Shown piece by piece: positions 23,244 to 35,521 of a stretch of DNA of 64,000 nt (position 1 is the stretch's first letter; every line of letters starts with the position of its first letter). The DNA lies in contig NZ_CP039865.1 of assembly GCF_005160265.1 (NCBI RefSeq), forward strand, positions 4,364,828 to 4,428,827, in the 5' to 3' direction. The notes under the pieces are model-generated. The model ran no database searches, was not told where the DNA came from, and worked only from the letters and a program-made list of their open reading frames with translations. Position numbers and translations under genes: made by a program. Source of the DNA: Phreatobacter aquaticus. GTDB taxonomy: Bacteria > Pseudomonadota > Alphaproteobacteria > Rhizobiales > Phreatobacteraceae.

Positions 23244-24317
23244 TCACGCCGTCGCGCGCAGCACCAGCGCCGACCAGTAGACGAACACCGAGCCGGGGAG
23301 CCCCCATCGCACGAAGCCGCTGAGTTCCAGATAGATGTTCGGGTGTCGCTTGGCCCAGGCGAGGTCCTTGTTCAGCAGGAGCATGCTGAGGATCAGAACC
23401 GACACGACATAGAGATAGCCGATCGACAGGATCTGGGCGATCGGCGTGCCGGTGGACATGGAGCCCGGGAAATTCGACTCGAAGGTGAAGCTCAAGGCCA
23501 CCAGCGCCAGCAGCGTGGTGAAGGCGAGAGCCCCCTTGGGCGCCAGCGGCATGGTCGTGTCGGGCGTCCACAGGATCACCAGCGTGCTCGACATCAGCAT
23601 CAGGAACGGGATGAAGATGCGGATCAGGTACTGGCCGTAGAGCCGCTCGGTCACCACCGATACCGACATGCGGCTGTGCGGCTCGCCGTTCCACCCGACA
23701 TAGCTGGCATTGCGGAAATTGAGCGCACGGATCCTCCACAGCGGCGTCTGCAGCCGCTGGGCAAAGGAGGAATGCATCTCGTCGGCCTCGGTGTGGACCA
23801 GCAGCACCTCACGCTGGCCATAGCGGTTGGAGGTCAGGTCCAGGTCCAGCGTCTGCACGTCGAAGGGAAACGACGACATGTCGATGCTGACGCGGAACGT
23901 GGCGTCCAACCGGCGCACCAGCGTGATCGCGCCGGTCGACTCGATCACCAGGCCCAGCTGGTCCTGGCGCGGGGCACCCGACAGGTTCTCGATGTCGATC
24001 GCAGGCGTCCACATCTGGCGCAGGCGCGCGGTCGCGGCCTCGCCGAAATAGTCCTTATGCGACACCGCGGCCTTCACCGCGTCGAAGGCCTGGCGCGAGT
24101 CCGTCCAGCGATAGGTGAGCTCCACCCGGGCATTGAGCTGCCCGGTGGTCTCCATCACCTGGGCAATATCCAGGATGCGCGTTGCCACAGCCACGCGAAC
24201 CGGCAGCTGATCGCCAACCGGCAGGTCCGTCAGCTCGGCCGCAGCGGCAGCGCCGCCGAGCGAGGCGACCGTCAGGACGATCGCCGCGAGACGTCGAAGC
24301 AGGGTTCCCGCGGCCAT
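23244..24317 (-). CDS. Pentameric ligand-gated ion channel (Cys-loop-receptor homologue)
   Basis: 357 residues from the ATG at 24317. The signal peptide ends near AAAAEL. The extracellular beta-sandwich includes WTPAIDIENL (loop near WxP) and DMSSFPFDVQTLDLDL (the prokaryotic Cys-loop equivalent, without the Cys pair). Four membrane helices follow (M1 IRIFIPFLMLMSSTLVILWT; M2 ALAFTTLLALVALSFTFE; M3; M4 at the C-terminus). This is the GLIC/ELIC-type architecture of the inner membrane, with ligand binding in the periplasm. The ligand is unknown. It overlaps the upstream Cache gene by one base (TGATG), so the two are co-translated. A GTG one codon earlier is an alternative start. Confidence 0.88.
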   Translation of the reverse strand: MAAGTLLRRLAAIVLTVASLGGAAAAAELTDLPVGDQLPVRVAVATRILDIAQVMETTGQLNARVELTYRWTDSRQAFDAVKAAVSHKDYFGEAATARLRQMWTPAIDIENLSGAPRQDQLGLVIESTGAITLVRRLDATFRVSIDMSSFPFDVQTLDLDLTSNRYGQREVLLVHTEADEMHSSFAQRLQTPLWRIRALNFRNASYVGWNGEPHSRMSVSVVTERLYGQYLIRIFIPFLMLMSSTLVILWTPDTTMPLAPKGALAFTTLLALVALSFTFESNFPGSMSTGTPIAQILSIGYLYVVSVLILSMLLLNKDLAWAKRHPNIYLELSGFVRWGLPGSVFVYWSALVLRATA

Positions 24318-25408
24318 CACGAGGTCACCTTCTCGCGCAGACGCTTGACGCTCGCGATCAACGCGTTGACTTCGGCGACCGTGCCGGCCTTGGGCAGATC
24401 GACGGCAGCCGCCCCTTCGGCAGCGGCCTCGGCGGCCTTGGCGACAATCGCCACCGGACGCAGCACCATGCCGCGGAAGACCAGCAGGATGATCGCGACG
24501 ATGCCGATCTCGGCGATGATGCCGCCGGCGATCAGCGAGATCGCCAGCTGGCGCAGCGAGCGGCCATTGGCGTTGAACGACTTGGCCGCCACGACAACGC
24601 CGATCTCCGAGCCGGAATAGTCCAGCAGCGGCGACGACACCGAGCCATAGGTCATTCCGTTGAGCGTGGCGAAGCTGAATACCGGCTCCTTCACCAGGGC
24701 GATCTTGCCGAGCTCGGACAGTTTCGCGACCAGCGGCCAGTTGGTGCCGCTGTCGCCGCGCAGATTGCCGAACACATTGGCCTCGGGCGTGCCCGGGCGA
24801 ACGTTCAGCAGACGGCGGTCGATCACGACAGCGAAATCGGCATTGGTGCGGGCCTTCAGCGTCTCGAGCAGGGGCCCGAGCTCCTGGCCAAATTCGATGC
24901 TGCCGACCAGCGTGCCCTCATGCGAGACGGGGGCCGCACCGCGCACGCGCACGCCGGACGATCCGATCTCGATGCCGCTCTGCGGCTGCAGGCTGGCATG
25001 AGCCGCGACGATGATCCGCCGCGATCTGGTGAAGTCGTCACCGCGGACGGCCGGTTCATGGAAGCGGAACAGCACATTGCCGTTCACACCGTTCACCTGG
25101 CCAACGGCGACGCCATATTTCTTGGCCAGCACGGCGTAGCTCTCGCCCATAAGCGCGGTCAGTGCCTCGGGCGTCCCGGCGGCCACGGCCCTGCCGAGGG
25201 GCGGCATGTGGGCGGCCAGTTCCGCCTGCGCCGCCAGGGTTTTCGCTGACGTGTTGATCTCTTCGCTGACCTGCGCGACCAGGCTGCGCAGCGCCTCCTG
25301 CTCGTCGACCTTCAGGGTCGCGGCGACATGGGAAAAAGTGAAGGTGAGAAGGATGGCGATGATCGCCGTCGACAGGGCGACGGTGAAGGCGAATGCGCGG
25401 CTATGCAT
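24317..25408 (-). CDS. Membrane Cache-domain sensor lacking an output domain
   Basis: 363 residues: an N-terminal membrane helix (about 7-29), a periplasmic region of about 250 residues resembling a double-Cache/Cache_3 sensor (YGVAVGQVNGVNGNVLFRFH; VIDRRLLNV), a second helix near 305-325 (ISLIAGGIIAEIGIVAIILL), then a short HAMP-like stretch (GMVLRPVAIVAKAAEAAAEG) and the end. No methyl-accepting, kinase or cyclase domain follows. Cache modules bind amino acids, amines or carboxylates. Its fate as partner of the overlapping ligand-gated channel is an inference from the operon. Confidence 0.82.
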   Translation of the reverse strand: MHSRAFAFTVALSTAIIAILLTFTFSHVAATLKVDEQEALRSLVAQVSEEINTSAKTLAAQAELAAHMPPLGRAVAAGTPEALTALMGESYAVLAKKYGVAVGQVNGVNGNVLFRFHEPAVRGDDFTRSRRIIVAAHASLQPQSGIEIGSSGVRVRGAAPVSHEGTLVGSIEFGQELGPLLETLKARTNADFAVVIDRRLLNVRPGTPEANVFGNLRGDSGTNWPLVAKLSELGKIALVKEPVFSFATLNGMTYGSVSSPLLDYSGSEIGVVVAAKSFNANGRSLRQLAISLIAGGIIAEIGIVAIILLVFRGMVLRPVAIVAKAAEAAAEGAAAVDLPKAGTVAEVNALIASVKRLREKVTS

Positions 25409-26486: not shown

Positions 26487-26823
26487 GGGCCGGGAGGTTG
26501 GCTGCGGCCTCTCCGGCCGCCATCACCATTCAGAATGATGGAGATCAGTCCAGCCATCCAGAGAAAAGATCAGCCGGCGGACATGCGGCTCAATGGAGGA
26601 TCTGATTCTCTTTCGCGCTTTTGTTCTCGCCTGAGATACGAAACGAGTGGAACTCTCTCGGATTTCGAGGATGAAGAGGCCGATATTGCGCTTCTTCAGC
26701 ATCATTCCATCTGGTGATATCCGATCATATGAAATCAGAATTTCGCGGCAGGGAAGGCGCGGCCTAGGGTCCCGCCCGGCCGGGCCTGCGCAGTGCAGCG
26801 CCCGGCGCCATGCCGAGGCCACC
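26487..26823. other. Intergenic region between lysR and the autotransporter
   Basis: 337 bases, more AT-rich than the neighbours around 26560-26760, and therefore the likely promoter region for both divergent genes. An in-frame GTG at 26647 could extend the autotransporter by 59 codons, but that extension does not look like a signal peptide. No clear LysR T-N11-A box could be assigned. Confidence 0.4.
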
Positions 26824-29535
26824 GTGATCCAGTCCGCCCTGTCCCGCCCGTCCCATGCCCTGACCACCCATCGGCGGCTGATTCCCCATCTGATGGCGGG
26901 CCTGTCGGCCGTGTCGCTCACGCTTGCCGCGCCGGAGGCCAGGGCCACCGACATCCTCTGGACCGGCGGCAATGGCGAATTCTTAACCGGCAGCAATTGG
27001 GCGGGCGGCGTTGTTCCACTTGGCACTGATGCTGGGGTGTTTGGCGATGTATTGGCCAGAACCGTGACGGTGACTGTCGCGCCGGCAACATCGGCAGGCA
27101 CCGGAGACCTCAAGTTCAATGCGGACGCCGGGCAGGTGACCTTCAATCTGGGCTTAGGCGCCGGATCCAGATTTGCGATCGTTGGCCGCGTCATCACCGA
27201 CGCTGCGGGCCAGGCCCCCATCTTCAATGTGCAGGCGGGCGGCACCCAGTTGGTCTTCCAAGCCGGCACCGCATCGGCTGGCAATGCCACCATCAACAAC
27301 CAGGGGACAGTGACTTTCGAAGGCACTTCCTCTGCCGGCACGGCCATCATCAACACCACCAATGGCGGCCTGCTCTATATCGGAGGGAACTCGCAAGGCG
27401 GTTCAGCGGTGCTGAACGCCACCGACAGCACTATCCGCGTTGAGACAGGGGCACATACTCAGAACGCAACGATCACGCTGAACGGAACAAGCGCGCTGCG
27501 GTTTCAGGGCGGGGGCGCAAGTGCCAGTGCGGCTTCGATCACCGCCAATAGCGGCTCGCTGGTCGAGTTCACTGGCTACACCTTCGGCGGCACGGCCAGC
27601 CTCGACATCAAGAGCGGCGCGACGCTCGAGATGCAGAACAGTAGCAACCCCACCCTGGCCTTCAGCTCGCTGATTGCCAACGGCACGGTCAATATGGGCT
27701 CCACGAACCTCACCGTCGGCTCGCTCTCGGGCGCCGGCACGATCGACACGGCCAGCGCCGGCGGGCCGACGATCACGGTTGGCGGCGGCAATGTGTCCTC
27801 GTCATTCTCGGGCACGATCACCGGCACGACCCTCGGTCTGGTGAAGAACGGCACGGGCACCTTCACCTTCGGCGGCACGATGGCGACCTCCGGACTGACC
27901 CAGGTGAATGTCGGCACCCTGCAGGTCGACGGATCGATCGGCGGCACGGGCGGTGTGTCGGTCGCCTCTGGCGGTACGCTGGCGGGCGCTGGAACCGTCT
28001 CCGGCTTCACGGTTGCGTCCGGCGGCTTCGTCGCGCCGGGCAGCGGCGGCATCGGCACGCTGAACGTCACCGGCAATGCCACGCTGAATGCCGGCAGCAC
28101 GACCGTCATCGAGGTCTCGGCGGCCAGCGCCGACAGGCTCGCTATCTCCGGCACGGCGAGCCTCGCCGGCGGCCTTCGGCTGGTCACGGTCGGCACCGGC
28201 TTCTCGTTCGGCACCAATTACACGATCCTGTCCGCGGCGGGCGGCCTCACCGGCACGTTCAACCCGGTGAACATCGTCGGTTCCTTCGGCCCCGGCATCG
28301 GCACCAATCTCAGCTATACCGGCACCGACGCCATCCTCTCGCTGTCGGCCAATGCGCTGCTCCCGCTGCTGCCGACCGGCATCGCCACCAACCCTCGCAA
28401 TGTCGCAACCGCCATCGACCGCGCGGTCGGCGGCGGGGCCGACGGCTCCGCCTTCTTCGGCCTCTATGCGCTGAACCCCTCGGCCATGCCGGGTGCGCTC
28501 TCGGCCCTGTCGGGCGAGGCCGCGACTGGGACCCAGCAGACCGCCTTCAATGCCGCAGGCCTGTTCCTCTCCATGATGCTCGACCCGATGACCGGCGCGC
28601 GCGGCGCGACCGCGGCCTCGGCCAGCCCCTCGCTGGTCCAGATGGCCGATCCGCCGGTCGGTGGCCGGGCGGTTGCGGTCGATGCCGGCTGGAACGTCTG
28701 GACCAAGGCCTATGCCCAGTCGGGCGCGACCAATGGCGATGCCGGCACAGGTGCTGCCTCATCCACCGGTAGCCTCTATGGCGTGGCGGCCGGCGCCGAC
28801 AAGCGCCTCACGCCGGATACGCTGGTCGGCTTCGCCCTGTCGGGCGGCGGCACGTCCTTCGGCCTCGGCCAGGCCCGTGGCTCGGGCACCGGCGACACGT
28901 TCCAGGCCGGTCTCTATGGCTCGACGCGGCTGGGCGACGGCTATGTCTCGGCGGCGCTTGCCTATGGCTGGAACAGCTTCTCCATCTCGCGCACTGTCGC
29001 CGCCGCTGGCCTCAACGAGACCTATGCATCACGCGTCACTGCCCAGACCTATGGCGGCCGCCTCGAGGCCGGCTGGCGCATGGGTGTCCGGGCCTATGGC
29101 CTGACCCCCTATGCCGCGCTGGAAGCCATCGGCTATCAGGCGCCCGGCTATGCCGAGACCTTCACGGCCCCCACCACCGGCGCTGCCGCGCTCGCCTATG
29201 CCGGCAAGTCCTCGGCCTCGATCCGCAGCGAGCTCGGCCTGCGCGCCGATGCCCGTACCGAACTCGCCCCCGGCCAGACCCTGATCACCTATGGCCGCCT
29301 CGCCTGGGCCTATCAGGCGCGTCCCGACCGCTCGGTCGATGCGAGCTTCCAGGGCCTGGCCAATTCCGGCTTCACAGTGTTCGGTGCCCGCGCCTCGACC
29401 CACACGGCGCTGGCGTCGCTTGGGGCGGAACTGCAGATCGCCGCCGGCACGCGGCTGTCGTCGTCGCTCGATGCCGAGCTTGGCGACCGCCATCGCTCCA
29501 TCCGCGCCAATCTCGGCCTGCGCCACAGCTGGTAA
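26824..29535 (+). CDS. Autotransporter (type Va secretion) outer-membrane protein
   Basis: 903 residues from a GTG at 26824. The signal peptide is IPHLMAGLSAVSLTLAAPEA with cleavage after RA. The passenger is a repetitive beta-helix rich in Gly, Thr, Ser and Asn with typical autotransporter-strand repeats (LVKNGTGTFTFGGTM; TLQVDGSIGGTGG; TLAGAGTVSG). The C-terminal 280 residues form the translocator barrel (AWNVWTKAYAQSG is the start region) and end in the aromatic residue Trp (LGLRHSW). The passenger has no recognisable enzymatic domain, so adhesion is the likeliest role. Confidence 0.88.
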   Translation: MIQSALSRPSHALTTHRRLIPHLMAGLSAVSLTLAAPEARATDILWTGGNGEFLTGSNWAGGVVPLGTDAGVFGDVLARTVTVTVAPATSAGTGDLKFNADAGQVTFNLGLGAGSRFAIVGRVITDAAGQAPIFNVQAGGTQLVFQAGTASAGNATINNQGTVTFEGTSSAGTAIINTTNGGLLYIGGNSQGGSAVLNATDSTIRVETGAHTQNATITLNGTSALRFQGGGASASAASITANSGSLVEFTGYTFGGTASLDIKSGATLEMQNSSNPTLAFSSLIANGTVNMGSTNLTVGSLSGAGTIDTASAGGPTITVGGGNVSSSFSGTITGTTLGLVKNGTGTFTFGGTMATSGLTQVNVGTLQVDGSIGGTGGVSVASGGTLAGAGTVSGFTVASGGFVAPGSGGIGTLNVTGNATLNAGSTTVIEVSAASADRLAISGTASLAGGLRLVTVGTGFSFGTNYTILSAAGGLTGTFNPVNIVGSFGPGIGTNLSYTGTDAILSLSANALLPLLPTGIATNPRNVATAIDRAVGGGADGSAFFGLYALNPSAMPGALSALSGEAATGTQQTAFNAAGLFLSMMLDPMTGARGATAASASPSLVQMADPPVGGRAVAVDAGWNVWTKAYAQSGATNGDAGTGAASSTGSLYGVAAGADKRLTPDTLVGFALSGGGTSFGLGQARGSGTGDTFQAGLYGSTRLGDGYVSAALAYGWNSFSISRTVAAAGLNETYASRVTAQTYGGRLEAGWRMGVRAYGLTPYAALEAIGYQAPGYAETFTAPTTGAAALAYAGKSSASIRSELGLRADARTELAPGQTLITYGRLAWAYQARPDRSVDASFQGLANSGFTVFGARASTHTALASLGAELQIAAGTRLSSSLDAELGDRHRSIRANLGLRHSW

Positions 29536-30145: not shown

Positions 30146-31369
30146 TCAGGCGGCAGCGCCGGCCTTGGCCTTCTCGGCCTCCTGCAGCGACATCACCAGC
30201 GTCGGGGCGATCCGGTCCCAGATATGGGTGAAAATGTGCTTCCAGCTGCCGCAATAGACGCTGGGGTTGTCGAAGCCGCGCTCGGTCGACCAGCGCTGCG
30301 CGAGGTGGCCGCCGCCGCAGGCATCCATGAACTCGCACGCCTTGCAGACATCGGCCAGCTGCGTGCTGGAATCATAGGCTGCGCGCCAGCGCGGGTCCTG
30401 CTGCACGGCCTGCAGCGCGTTGGTCAGCACGCTGGAATCGGTGCGCGTGGACCCGTCACCGACGATCCGCAGCACGTCCAGCGGCTCCAGTGAGCCATCG
30501 GTCATCAGGGTCACGACTTCCGTCGGCCCGAGCCCGATCGTCTCGGAGACCGCGGCCTGCCCCACCAGCCCCTGGATCATCGCATCCAGCGTGCCGATCC
30601 GGACGCCGCGCTCGGCGTAGCGGTCGAACCAGACGTCGAAAAGCTTGGTGAAATAGGTGCCAATCTCGGGGGGATTGTCGAGATGGGTGGCATCCGGCGG
30701 CAGGATGTCGAACTGGGTGATGCCCAGTTCATCGACCACATAGGAGATGATCCGCTCCGGATCGGTCGCCGGATTGCACACCGAGATCAGCCCGGGCTCG
30801 ATGCCGGCTTCGCGCAGGAACTCGATGCCGCGAATGGTCTCCGCGTGGGTCCCCTTGCCCTTGAAATCGATGCGGTTGGCATCGTGGATATCGGGCGGAC
30901 CATCGACGCTGACGCTGATGCCGATCTCGTATTCGACGAAGATCTCGGCCCATTCCTTGTCGATCAGGATGGCATTGGTGCACACGCCGCGCTCGATCAG
31001 GCAGCCGGTGCGCTCCTCGATCTTGTTCAGCTTCTCCTGCAGCGCCACGAAGCGCCGCTTGGGGAACAGAAGCGGCTCGCCGCCGTGGAACACCAGCATG
31101 AAGGAGGTGAGCCCGTGCTGCGTGATGTGTTCTTCCAGGCGCTGGCAGAAGGCGTCCTCCACCTCGTCGGTGAGTACGGCGGGCTTCTTGTAGACGTCGG
31201 CGTCGCGGAACCAATAGCAGTAGGTGCAGGCGATGTTGCAGCGAGACGCGAGCTTCACCAGCACGAAGGAGAAGACATGGCCATCCTGCGCGGGCGTCCG
31301 CATGGCGGCGGCCGCCGCCGAGGTCAAGCCTGTCGAAGGGGCTGCAGACGAACCTTGGGCAACCTGCAT
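30146..31369 (-). CDS. Radical SAM/SPASM peptide maturase (GrrM/OscB-like)
   Basis: 407 residues. The radical-SAM motif CNIACTYC (Cys 44, 48, 51) is followed by YWFRDADVYKKPAVLTDEVE and FHGGEPLLFP. The C-terminal SPASM region carries CKACEFMDACGGGHLAQRWS and VYCGSW, ligating auxiliary clusters. The family matures ribosomal peptides, often by joining aromatic side chains to nearby residues (three-residue cyclophanes). The precursor gene lies 155 bases upstream on the same strand. The assignment to the GrrM-like branch is by sequence appearance. Confidence 0.85.
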   Translation of the reverse strand: MQVAQGSSAAPSTGLTSAAAAAMRTPAQDGHVFSFVLVKLASRCNIACTYCYWFRDADVYKKPAVLTDEVEDAFCQRLEEHITQHGLTSFMLVFHGGEPLLFPKRRFVALQEKLNKIEERTGCLIERGVCTNAILIDKEWAEIFVEYEIGISVSVDGPPDIHDANRIDFKGKGTHAETIRGIEFLREAGIEPGLISVCNPATDPERIISYVVDELGITQFDILPPDATHLDNPPEIGTYFTKLFDVWFDRYAERGVRIGTLDAMIQGLVGQAAVSETIGLGPTEVVTLMTDGSLEPLDVLRIVGDGSTRTDSSVLTNALQAVQQDPRWRAAYDSSTQLADVCKACEFMDACGGGHLAQRWSTERGFDNPSVYCGSWKHIFTHIWDRIAPTLVMSLQEAEKAKAGAAA

Positions 31370-31524
31370 CGGGGGCCTTTCCAGGTCGAATTAAGATAAG
31401 CCGGCAAAGTCACTGCGGCGCCAAATCTTGGCTGAAAACGCGATAGTCCACCATAAAAAAGCTGTGGCAGATGAGCTTGCGCCCACCTGCCACCGGCCTT
31501 GACGACAATCCGTCGCGCCCGCAA

Positions 31525-31911
31525 TCACCAGCGGCGATAATAGCGGAAGCGGCGGTAGAAGAAACGGGAATAGCGGCGGTAGAAGAACCGGCGATAGACG
31601 AAACGGCGATAGTAAAACTGCGCGTTCTCGATCTGCGGTTCGCCGGTCTCGGCGCCCTCGCCGGCCTGCATTTCGGCGCCAGGGCTGTCCTGGATGATGC
31701 CGTTGAGGGCGGCATTGGTCGACGAGATGCTCATCGACGGCGCCGCTTCGGCACCCTTTGTCCCGATCACGCCGACGGCGCTGGCGGCACCGAAGCCGAT
31801 ACCCAGAGCCTTCAGACGGTCCAGAAGTCCGCGGCGGGACATGCCCGTCGTGTTCAGCTCGCTCTGCAGGTCCTTGGCGGCCTGTTCGCGCTTGTCCAGT
31901 TCATCGCTCAT
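31525..31911 (-). CDS. Putative RiPP precursor with YRR repeats
   Basis: 128 residues. Residues 24-57 resemble a leader with basic and hydrophobic parts (GMSRRGLLDRLKALGIGFGA then ASAVGVIGTKGAEAA), like GrrA/OscA precursors. The last 30 residues hold five YRR units at 101, 106, 111, 119 and 125, each followed by an aromatic residue (F, F, Y, F, W), as in FVYRRFFYRRY. The usual Gly-rich core of GrrA is absent. It sits directly upstream of the radical-SAM/SPASM gene, which would be its modifying enzyme. GGAG precedes the ATG by 6 bases. Confidence 0.8.
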   Translation of the reverse strand: MSDELDKREQAAKDLQSELNTTGMSRRGLLDRLKALGIGFGAASAVGVIGTKGAEAAPSMSISSTNAALNGIIQDSPGAEMQAGEGAETGEPQIENAQFYYRRFVYRRFFYRRYSRFFYRRFRYYRRW

Positions 31912-33959: not shown

Positions 33960-35521
33960 GATGCGCGCCTCAGGCCCCAGAGGAACATGGCGGGGCCAAC
34001 CGGCACGTTGGCCAGTTCGGCGCGCCAGGCCGAGGGCCCGACGAACTGGCCAAGCGGCATGTAGAACCCGGCCTCCGCCGCCCGCTTGTGGATCGCCTCC
34101 GCGATGGACTTGGCTTCCGCCTCGCTGGAGGTCGCGGCGAAGGCTGCGCGGAGTTTCTCGACCTCCTCGTCCTTCGGCCAGCCGGCAAAGCCCGCAGGCG
34201 CGCCAACGCCGCCCATATAGACGTTCTGCAAGGGCGTCTGCATGTCGGGCACGGTGTTGGTCGTGTGGAAGATGTGCCAGCCCTCGGGGCGCGTGCGCCG
34301 GCCGAAGAACGTGTTCAGGTCCATGGTGGCGAGTTCCACCTTGAAGCCGAGCTTGGTCAGCAGGTCCTGCGTCACGAGGCCAAGCGCCGCGATACCCGGC
34401 GCATCGGCCGGGTGCAGGATGACCACCGGCTTGGAGAGATCGGCGCCGCTCGCGGCGATCTCGCGCTTGGCGGCCTCGAAGTCGAAGGCCGGCATGCCGG
34501 CACTCGTCTCATAGGTGGTGCCGCAGCCATACATGCTGCGGCATTCGCGGCCGAACTCGGACCTGACGGCGACGGCGGCCAGATAATCCGCCTGGTTGAC
34601 CGCCTGCATGACGGCGCGACGCACCTTCACATTGTCGAAGGGCGCGGCCACATGGTTGAACCGCATGATGCCCTGATAGCCATAGGGGCTGACAACCTGC
34701 ACCTTCACCAAGCGGTTGCGCTCGAGGATCGGCAGGACATCGGGCGGCAGGCGCTCCAGATAGTCGACCTCGCCGGTGAGCAGGCCCGACACCTGGGTCG
34801 AGACATCCGGCATGGAGATCAGTTCGACGCGCTCAAAATGGGCGACCTTGGCCCCGCTTGCCCAGACGGAAGGCTCGCTGCGCGGCTTGTAGGCGGCATG
34901 GCGCTTCAGAACGATGCGGTCGCCCGGCCGGTACTCCTCCTTGACGAAGCTGTAGGGGCCGGAGCCCACGGGATCGATGATCGGCCGGGTCGGCGGCGTA
35001 TCGGCCAGCCGCTTCGGCATGATCATCGGCACCATGGCGCCGGGCTTGGAGAGGGCCTGGAGGACAAGGCCATAGGGCTCCTTCAGCACCAGTTTGAAGG
35101 TCTTGGCGTCCACCGGCTCCAGCGTCTGCGCGGCTTTCAGCAGGGCCGCGCCCATCGTGTCGCGGGCGCCCCAGCGCCTGAGGCTCGCCACGCAATCTTC
35201 CGAGGTGACGGCAGTGCCATCGTGGAAGGTCAGGCCATCGCGCAGCGTGAAGGTCCAGGTCGCGCCATCGGCGCTCTTGGTCCAGGTATCGACCATCTGC
35301 GGCTTGACCTGCCACTTGTCGTCGACGGCAAACAGCGTGTCGAAGACCAGATAGGAGAAGTCGCGGGCGGTGAAGCTCGTGGTGAAATGGGGATCGAGGA
35401 TGGTGGTCAGCGTTTCCGGCACGACGCGCAGCGTCTGGGCCCGGCTGACGGTCTGGGCGCCGGCAGAGGCCGACAGGAGGAACGGCGCCGACAGTCCGGC
35501 GAGAAAAGAACGGCGGTGCAC
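33956..35521 (-). CDS. ABC transporter substrate-binding protein, family 5 (peptide/nickel type)
   Basis: 521 residues with signal peptide (RRSFLAGLSAPFLLSASAGA, twin-arginine-like). TWTFTLRDGLTFHDGTAVTS EDCVASLRRWGARD and GSGPYSFVKEEYRPGDRIVL are hallmark family 5 solute-binding blocks, and NHVAAPFDNVKVRRAVMQAV follows. Periplasmic binding of peptides or related ligands is expected. No permease or ATPase genes are adjacent, so it must use a transporter encoded elsewhere. Operonic with the deaminase-like gene. Confidence 0.9.
   Translation of the reverse strand: MHRRSFLAGLSAPFLLSASAGAQTVSRAQTLRVVPETLTTILDPHFTTSFTARDFSYLVFDTLFAVDDKWQVKPQMVDTWTKSADGATWTFTLRDGLTFHDGTAVTSEDCVASLRRWGARDTMGAALLKAAQTLEPVDAKTFKLVLKEPYGLVLQALSKPGAMVPMIMPKRLADTPPTRPIIDPVGSGPYSFVKEEYRPGDRIVLKRHAAYKPRSEPSVWASGAKVAHFERVELISMPDVSTQVSGLLTGEVDYLERLPPDVLPILERNRLVKVQVVSPYGYQGIMRFNHVAAPFDNVKVRRAVMQAVNQADYLAAVAVRSEFGRECRSMYGCGTTYETSAGMPAFDFEAAKREIAASGADLSKPVVILHPADAPGIAALGLVTQDLLTKLGFKVELATMDLNTFFGRRTRPEGWHIFHTTNTVPDMQTPLQNVYMGGVGAPAGFAGWPKDEEVEKLRAAFAATSSEAEAKSIAEAIHKRAAEAGFYMPLGQFVGPSAWRAELANVPVGPAMFLWGLRRAS

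Follow-up and report, generated by a model that had tools for sequence, protein, structure and literature searches.

The closest named relative of the system described here is YhhA/YhhB (NF041707). For its maturase, YhhB, two kinds of bond to Arg Cbeta are reported, one from Tyr C3 and one from His C2 (PMC11002830). The YhhA precursors are about 60-84 aa long, with one YDR, one HHR, no repeats and no Tat-like signal; the plasmid-annotated ones end in SYDRMHHRHNRS, and we infer that Y-D-R and H-H-R are i to i+2 pairs. FxsA/FxsB (TIGR04269) also has a SPASM cyclophane maturase; its short precursors of the FxsA type bear F-x-S motifs and no YRR repeats. In GrrA/GrrM (OscA/OscB, TIGR04261), a repeat-bearing precursor lies beside a SPASM maturase. 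A radical-SAM Arg-Tyr macrocycle is also attributed to RrrB of Streptococcus (Caruso et al. 2019, cited in PMC11002830). Bufferins are MNIO RiPPs with Sec signal peptides, and Sec signals were called a rare feature there (PMC12452194).

Here we describe a precursor-maturase pair from the window, that is, the whole stretch of 64,000 nucleotides of Phreatobacter aquaticus DNA that was analysed (Table 1). It resembles YhhA/YhhB in its Tyr-x-Arg core (SYDR in YhhA), in an NPAL/NPAI-like leader motif and in its enzyme, for which YhhB is the nearest named maturase. But the annotated YhhB used for comparison is extended at its C-terminus to 711 aa, against 407 aa in the window enzyme, and the window precursor is longer, repeat-bearing and fitted with a Tat-like signal. 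With RrrB it would share a radical-SAM Arg-Tyr cross-link, but enzyme family and locus are different as far as that citation goes. With bufferins it would share a general export signal built into the precursor; bufferins differ in enzyme class, are Cys-based and use Sec, not Tat.

Table 1 Features of the window locus and of the nitrilase-fold genes at related loci
Feature	Position	Strand	Remarks
Precursor gene, 128 aa	31525..31911	-	Homologues at L002-L005, L023, L024
Tat-type signal region, residues 25-51	31759..31839	-	SRRGLLDRLK + 17 uncharged residues ALGIGFGAASAVGVIGT; profile match to solute-binding protein signal
Core, residues 99-128	31528..31617	-	FYYRRFVYRRFFYRRYSRFFYRRFRYYRRW; five YRR + one YSR
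Terminator-like hairpin	31464..31493	-	Between precursor and maturase; 13-pair stem, 4-base loop, T-run
Radical-SAM/SPASM maturase, 407 aa	30146..31369	-	YhhB/FxsB-like; below both family cut-offs
Nitrilase-fold gene	L002:7192-8214
Nitrilase-fold gene	L003:7226-8278
Nitrilase-fold gene	L004:7261-8307
Nitrilase-fold gene	L005:5932-6969
Nitrilase-fold gene	L024:4235-5305	-

Results

A precursor and maturase pair in seven loci

The five YRR reported in the earlier note were found exactly where it had placed them, at residues 101, 106, 111, 119 and 125 of the precursor, and the residues after them are F, F, Y, F and W. That the ORF is a real gene is shown by homologues (46-52% identity) that share its position and strand at six other loci, and by a GGAG upstream of its ATG. 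The precursor consists of a 24-aa N-tail, a Tat-like signal, a spacer with an STNxxLxxI motif and a basic aromatic core. The six further distinct loci with this pair turned up when genome contigs and whole genomes were scanned. Four of them (L002-L005) are MAGs labelled Rhizobiales, Beijerinckiaceae or Rhizobium, and L023 and L024 are in the family of genome G154. The system is rare, with 5 positives among 347 genomes in the family of G154 and one among 12 in the window's own family, namely the window genome. An empty-site comparison in the genus gave no clean site, since the adenosine deaminase gene that flanks the locus is missing from the other 11 genomes as well. Judging by isolate names, some YRR loci come from lakes.

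The adjoining enzyme had rightly been called radical-SAM/SPASM: it matches Pfam Radical_SAM and has a CxxxCxxC motif and conserved C-terminal cysteines, and its best solved relative was the ChlB radical SAM domain (8.1e-64, profile vs PDB). The three top-scoring families, YhhB, FxsB and then XyeB, are all cyclophane-forming, but neither the score against YhhB (285 bits, 7.7e-85; cut-off 445) nor that against FxsB (257 bits, 2.1e-76; cut-off 370) reached its cut-off. By these scores the maturase belongs to the cyclophane-forming SPASM group, yet lies within no curated NCBIfam family. Grr systems, which had served as the yardstick, were the wrong one: GrrM scored 120 bits (cut-off 310), and GrrA/GrrM membership was rejected on this score and on core composition. 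The Gly-rich GrrA core is indeed missing, as had been noted.

When 22 maturases were placed in a tree, the seven from the YRR loci formed one clade (100/99). Nearest to it were the enzymes of Blastococcus (L006) and Gemmatimonadota (L007), with the FRR enzymes (L008-L011) next, and these 13 enzymes together were separate from YhhB and FxsB (100/99), although deeper joins of the tree are unsure because of long branches. Beside the related maturases, the Gemmatimonadota locus has a precursor ending in FDRCFNK repeats (L007:3432-3674), and the Blastococcus locus one with FDR/YSR/YDR (L006:5672-6007). The loci L008-L011, from another family of the order, have FRRGG-repeat precursors of the form MPITTLKVL...SDHQGIEALLSDLRGQ...FRRGGF, which matched no NCBIfam family. 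Their enzymes fall in the same larger clade and they share aromatic-Arg-Arg repeats with the window precursor, but they have F for Y, are Gly-rich and lack a Tat-like signal, and no nitrilase-like gene was seen beside them.

The neighbour genes of the window pair include neither a protease nor an exporter, in agreement with the earlier note. A convergent SnoaL-like gene lies downstream and a DUF1236 gene upstream, and neither suggests a role in export or proteolysis. The hairpin between precursor and maturase had a fold z-score of -3.98, and several relatives likewise have hairpins with T-runs between precursor and maturase genes; the hairpin of the window is possibly an attenuator.

The leader and its putative Tat-type signal

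The Tat-like leader had not been mentioned in the earlier note. Its motif begins 24 residues into the precursor, where inspection by eye and by script showed an S-R-R-x-F-L-type motif and, after it, an uncharged stretch. SRR is invariant in all seven leaders, with D-R and K at fixed places and then G-x-G-F-G-A, which gives the consensus SRRxFLDRLKxxGxGFGA. In the five leaders measured, 13-19 uncharged residues follow the motif. L003-L005 and the window show a clear AxA-like end (AEA, AQA), L002 and L024 a less clear one. When the whole window genome was searched with a precursor profile, the one other match was MNEQELRGLINEVKDGTVSRRAFIQRLAAVGLAAP in an SBP_bac_5 protein, limited to the Tat-type signal, and no second YRR protein was found. 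The N-terminus of the family-5 solute-binding protein (MNEQELRGLINEVKDGTVSRRAFIQRLAAVGLAAPLATQLLSFAGVAHAQ) passes TIGR01409 with 17.0 bits (cut-off 16.7); some relatives of the window precursor reached about 9-10 bits and the window precursor gave no match, but this profile is not decisive, since it also misses an obvious Tat-type protein of the window, MHRRSFLAGLSAPFLL at 35521(-). TatC is present. From this layout, all seven leaders seem to carry a Tat-type signal, and if it is real, Tat and signal peptidase would stand in for the missing exporter and protease. The motif's position 24 residues in and the scores under the cut-off count against it.

Alternatively, cross-linking could be right while SRRxFLDRLK serves as a helix by which the enzyme or the nitrilase-like partner recognises the precursor, and the peptide stays inside or takes another exit. 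Conservation running beyond the Tat motif (D-R-x-K and GFGA are invariant) is more than a signal peptide needs, and the low TIGR01409 scores point the same way. But the sister FRR precursors lack the SRRxFLDRLK stretch although their enzymes are related, the solute-binding protein of the window's genome has the same leader layout, and behind SRRxFLDRLK come uncharged residues and, in most leaders, an AxA-like site. We consider a recognition helix unlikely, if far from negligible, and prefer a Tat-type signal.

The spacer after the putative signal is acidic in most members and carries STNxxLxxI. In L002 and L024 the leader reads TNPALDGI, like the NPAL/NPAI of YhhA leaders, and STNxxLxxI, which resembles the same YhhA motif, is a candidate recognition site for the maturase. 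Homology between YRR and FRR leaders was rejected, as hhalign paired STN..L..I with SDH..I..L without significance.

The core and the aromatic-x-Arg motif

The 30-residue core is composed of 12 R, 8 Y, 7 F and few other residues, none of them Gly, and has a net charge of +12. Its tail is tiled as FY[YRR]FV[YRR]FF[YRR][YSR]FF[YRR]FRY[YRR]W. The earlier count of five YRR holds but overlooked Y114-S-R116, the sixth of six disjoint Y-x-R triplets, so the predicted loss of 2 Da for each of five YRR should be widened to allow six such triplets and ten overlapping aromatic-x-Arg sites. Those ten sites compare with 4.2 expected (p about 1e-4), and 27 of 200,000 shuffles of the core's own letters produced five YRR; no comparable YRR cluster was seen in any other frame of the window. 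The YRR repeats are not due to chance. Six further loci of the same order have the same pair, with YRR/YGR tails and enzymes of one clade.

The tiling is even longer in L003, whose tail YW[YRR][YGR]VW[YRR][YGR]VF[YRR][YGR]VW[YRR]VF[YRR]W holds eight Y-x-R triplets. In L004 and L005 it is broken by YRP and YRRR stretches, and the enrichment at +2 was weaker (p 0.02 and 0.008). Beyond the YRR loci, Arg or Lys stands at +2 for 3/3 aromatics of the Blastococcus precursor (GFDR, GYSR, SYDR) and 7/7 of the Gemmatimonadota precursor (FDR/FNK repeats), and the FRR precursors have 5-6 sites against 1.4-2.0 expected. Judged by sequence, aromatic-x-Arg/Lys is a motif common to the maturase's whole clade, across four precursor types and three phyla.

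The window precursor thus has repeated aromatic-x-x triplets, as in triceptides, beside a SPASM enzyme whose nearest families form cyclophanes. By these features the locus is a new variant of triceptide-type RiPP, with predicted cross-linking and predicted Tat export. Tyr(i)-Arg(i+2) cyclophanes are the likely product, mainly by the clade-wide motif and the published bond of YhhB, so the earlier idea of a RiPP pair with Tyr-Arg crosslinks is retained while its comparison with Grr is dropped. The linkage could differ from that of YhhB, because the window enzyme is only 33% identical to an annotated YhhB, the score is below the cut-off and the clade is separate in the tree. The ring register is not certain either, because an aromatic residue often precedes YRR and likewise has Arg at +2.

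A core cross-linked in another register or by another bond (the aromatic of [FWY]-Y-R to Arg, ether, C-N or aromatic-aromatic) would fit the two overlapping aromatic-x-Arg triplets held by each [FWY]YRR, and related SPASM enzymes do make ether and C-N links, namely DarE (PMC9055067) and the dynobactin enzyme (PMC11002830). But the YGR/YSR units of the relatives have no second overlapping aromatic triplet, the FDR/YSR/YDR of Blastococcus allow a single register, and YhhB makes Tyr-Arg C-C links, so that we give another register or bond only a small share of the probability and keep Tyr(i)-Arg(i+2) rings as the preferred product. That the enzyme alters, for example, Arg or Tyr alone and leaves an unringed surface tail or polymer-binding tail is very improbable: radical-SAM/SPASM enzymes are diverse, but the three best-scoring families all form cyclophanes and the i,i+2 motif is held over four precursor types and three phyla.

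A nitrilase-like gene beside the maturase

Directly downstream of the maturase, with a gap of about 40-80 bases, a carbon-nitrogen hydrolase gene was found in five of the seven loci (Table 1), and the best structural relatives of its product were nitrilases. Glu48 and Lys134 are retained, but Gly (L002, L003, L024) or Ser (L004, L005) takes the place of the catalytic Cys in the LNCWEH motif, which leaves the Glu-Lys-Cys set of nitrilases incomplete in all five. The partner protein is thus probably not a working nitrilase. A structure model of it was discarded for a mean pLDDT of 46. The window's genome has no orthologue, with remote matches only (best 27%, 3.6e-5), and in L023 no such gene was seen in the 670 bases remaining on the contig. 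The partner may be helpful yet not required, or its role may be filled otherwise. In the Blastococcus and Gemmatimonadota loci, a 2OG-Fe(II) oxygenase-type or PhyH gene lies beside the maturase instead.

Discussion

We propose, with slightly less than even confidence, a two-gene RiPP locus with a hairpin-limited enzyme, Tyr-Arg cyclophanes made in the cytoplasm and Tat export. On the usual reading of such hairpins, part of transcription would stop between the genes, leaving the precursor in excess over the enzyme. The enzyme would bind the spacer in the cytoplasm, with STNxxLxxI as likely recognition site, and in one Y-x-R triplet after another would bond the Tyr(i) ring to the Arg(i+2) Cbeta. 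By analogy with YhhB and by the clade-wide motif, up to six three-residue cyclophanes could form per precursor, each with a loss of 2 Da. The cross-linked precursor would then reach the periplasm through the general Tat system by its SRRxFL-type signal and be cleaved by signal peptidase, so neither an exporter nor a protease would have to be encoded at the locus. The product peptide would follow an acidic spacer and be rigid, aromatic and strongly basic, and it is speculation that it acts in the periplasm on envelope polymers or competitors. The Cys-less nitrilase-fold protein is probably a binding or scaffold partner in the five loci that have it, and the window genome does without.

That the loci together form a Tat-exported poly-cyclophane family, with five to eight successive Tyr-Arg rings made in the cytoplasm before Tat export and usually a dead-nitrilase partner, is a more tentative proposal, which we hold at well under even confidence. 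The type of ring chemistry is known. Among the papers searched, we found none on YRR, nitrilase-linked or Tat-linked cyclophane RiPPs, and the substrate family, export tag and partner protein seem not to have been described, the 2022 triceptide landscape paper (JACS 2022, 144, 11580) aside, which may list YRR precursors. One enzyme installing several successive Tyr-Arg rings on an unusually basic peptide would widen the substrate range of cyclophane maturases, and with an aromatic-x-Arg/Lys rule that spans the clade, predictions of the product can be tested in three phyla. A Tat-borne RiPP precursor, if true, would link cross-linking to export of a pre-formed structure, and general export signals are rare in RiPP precursors, as PMC12452194 states for Sec signals. 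The conserved loss of the active site raises the question of what a dead nitrilase does for a peptide maturase.

Other genes in the window

At 23244-25408 (-), the window encodes a bacterial homologue of neurotransmitter-gated ion channels (Neur_chan_LBD, 1.8e-16), which overlaps an upstream dCache_3/HAMP-type sensor gene by four bases, so that channel and extracellular sensor apparently share one operon. An autotransporter with a repeat-rich passenger (Autotransporter beta-domain, 2.6e-45) is encoded at 26647-29535 (+).
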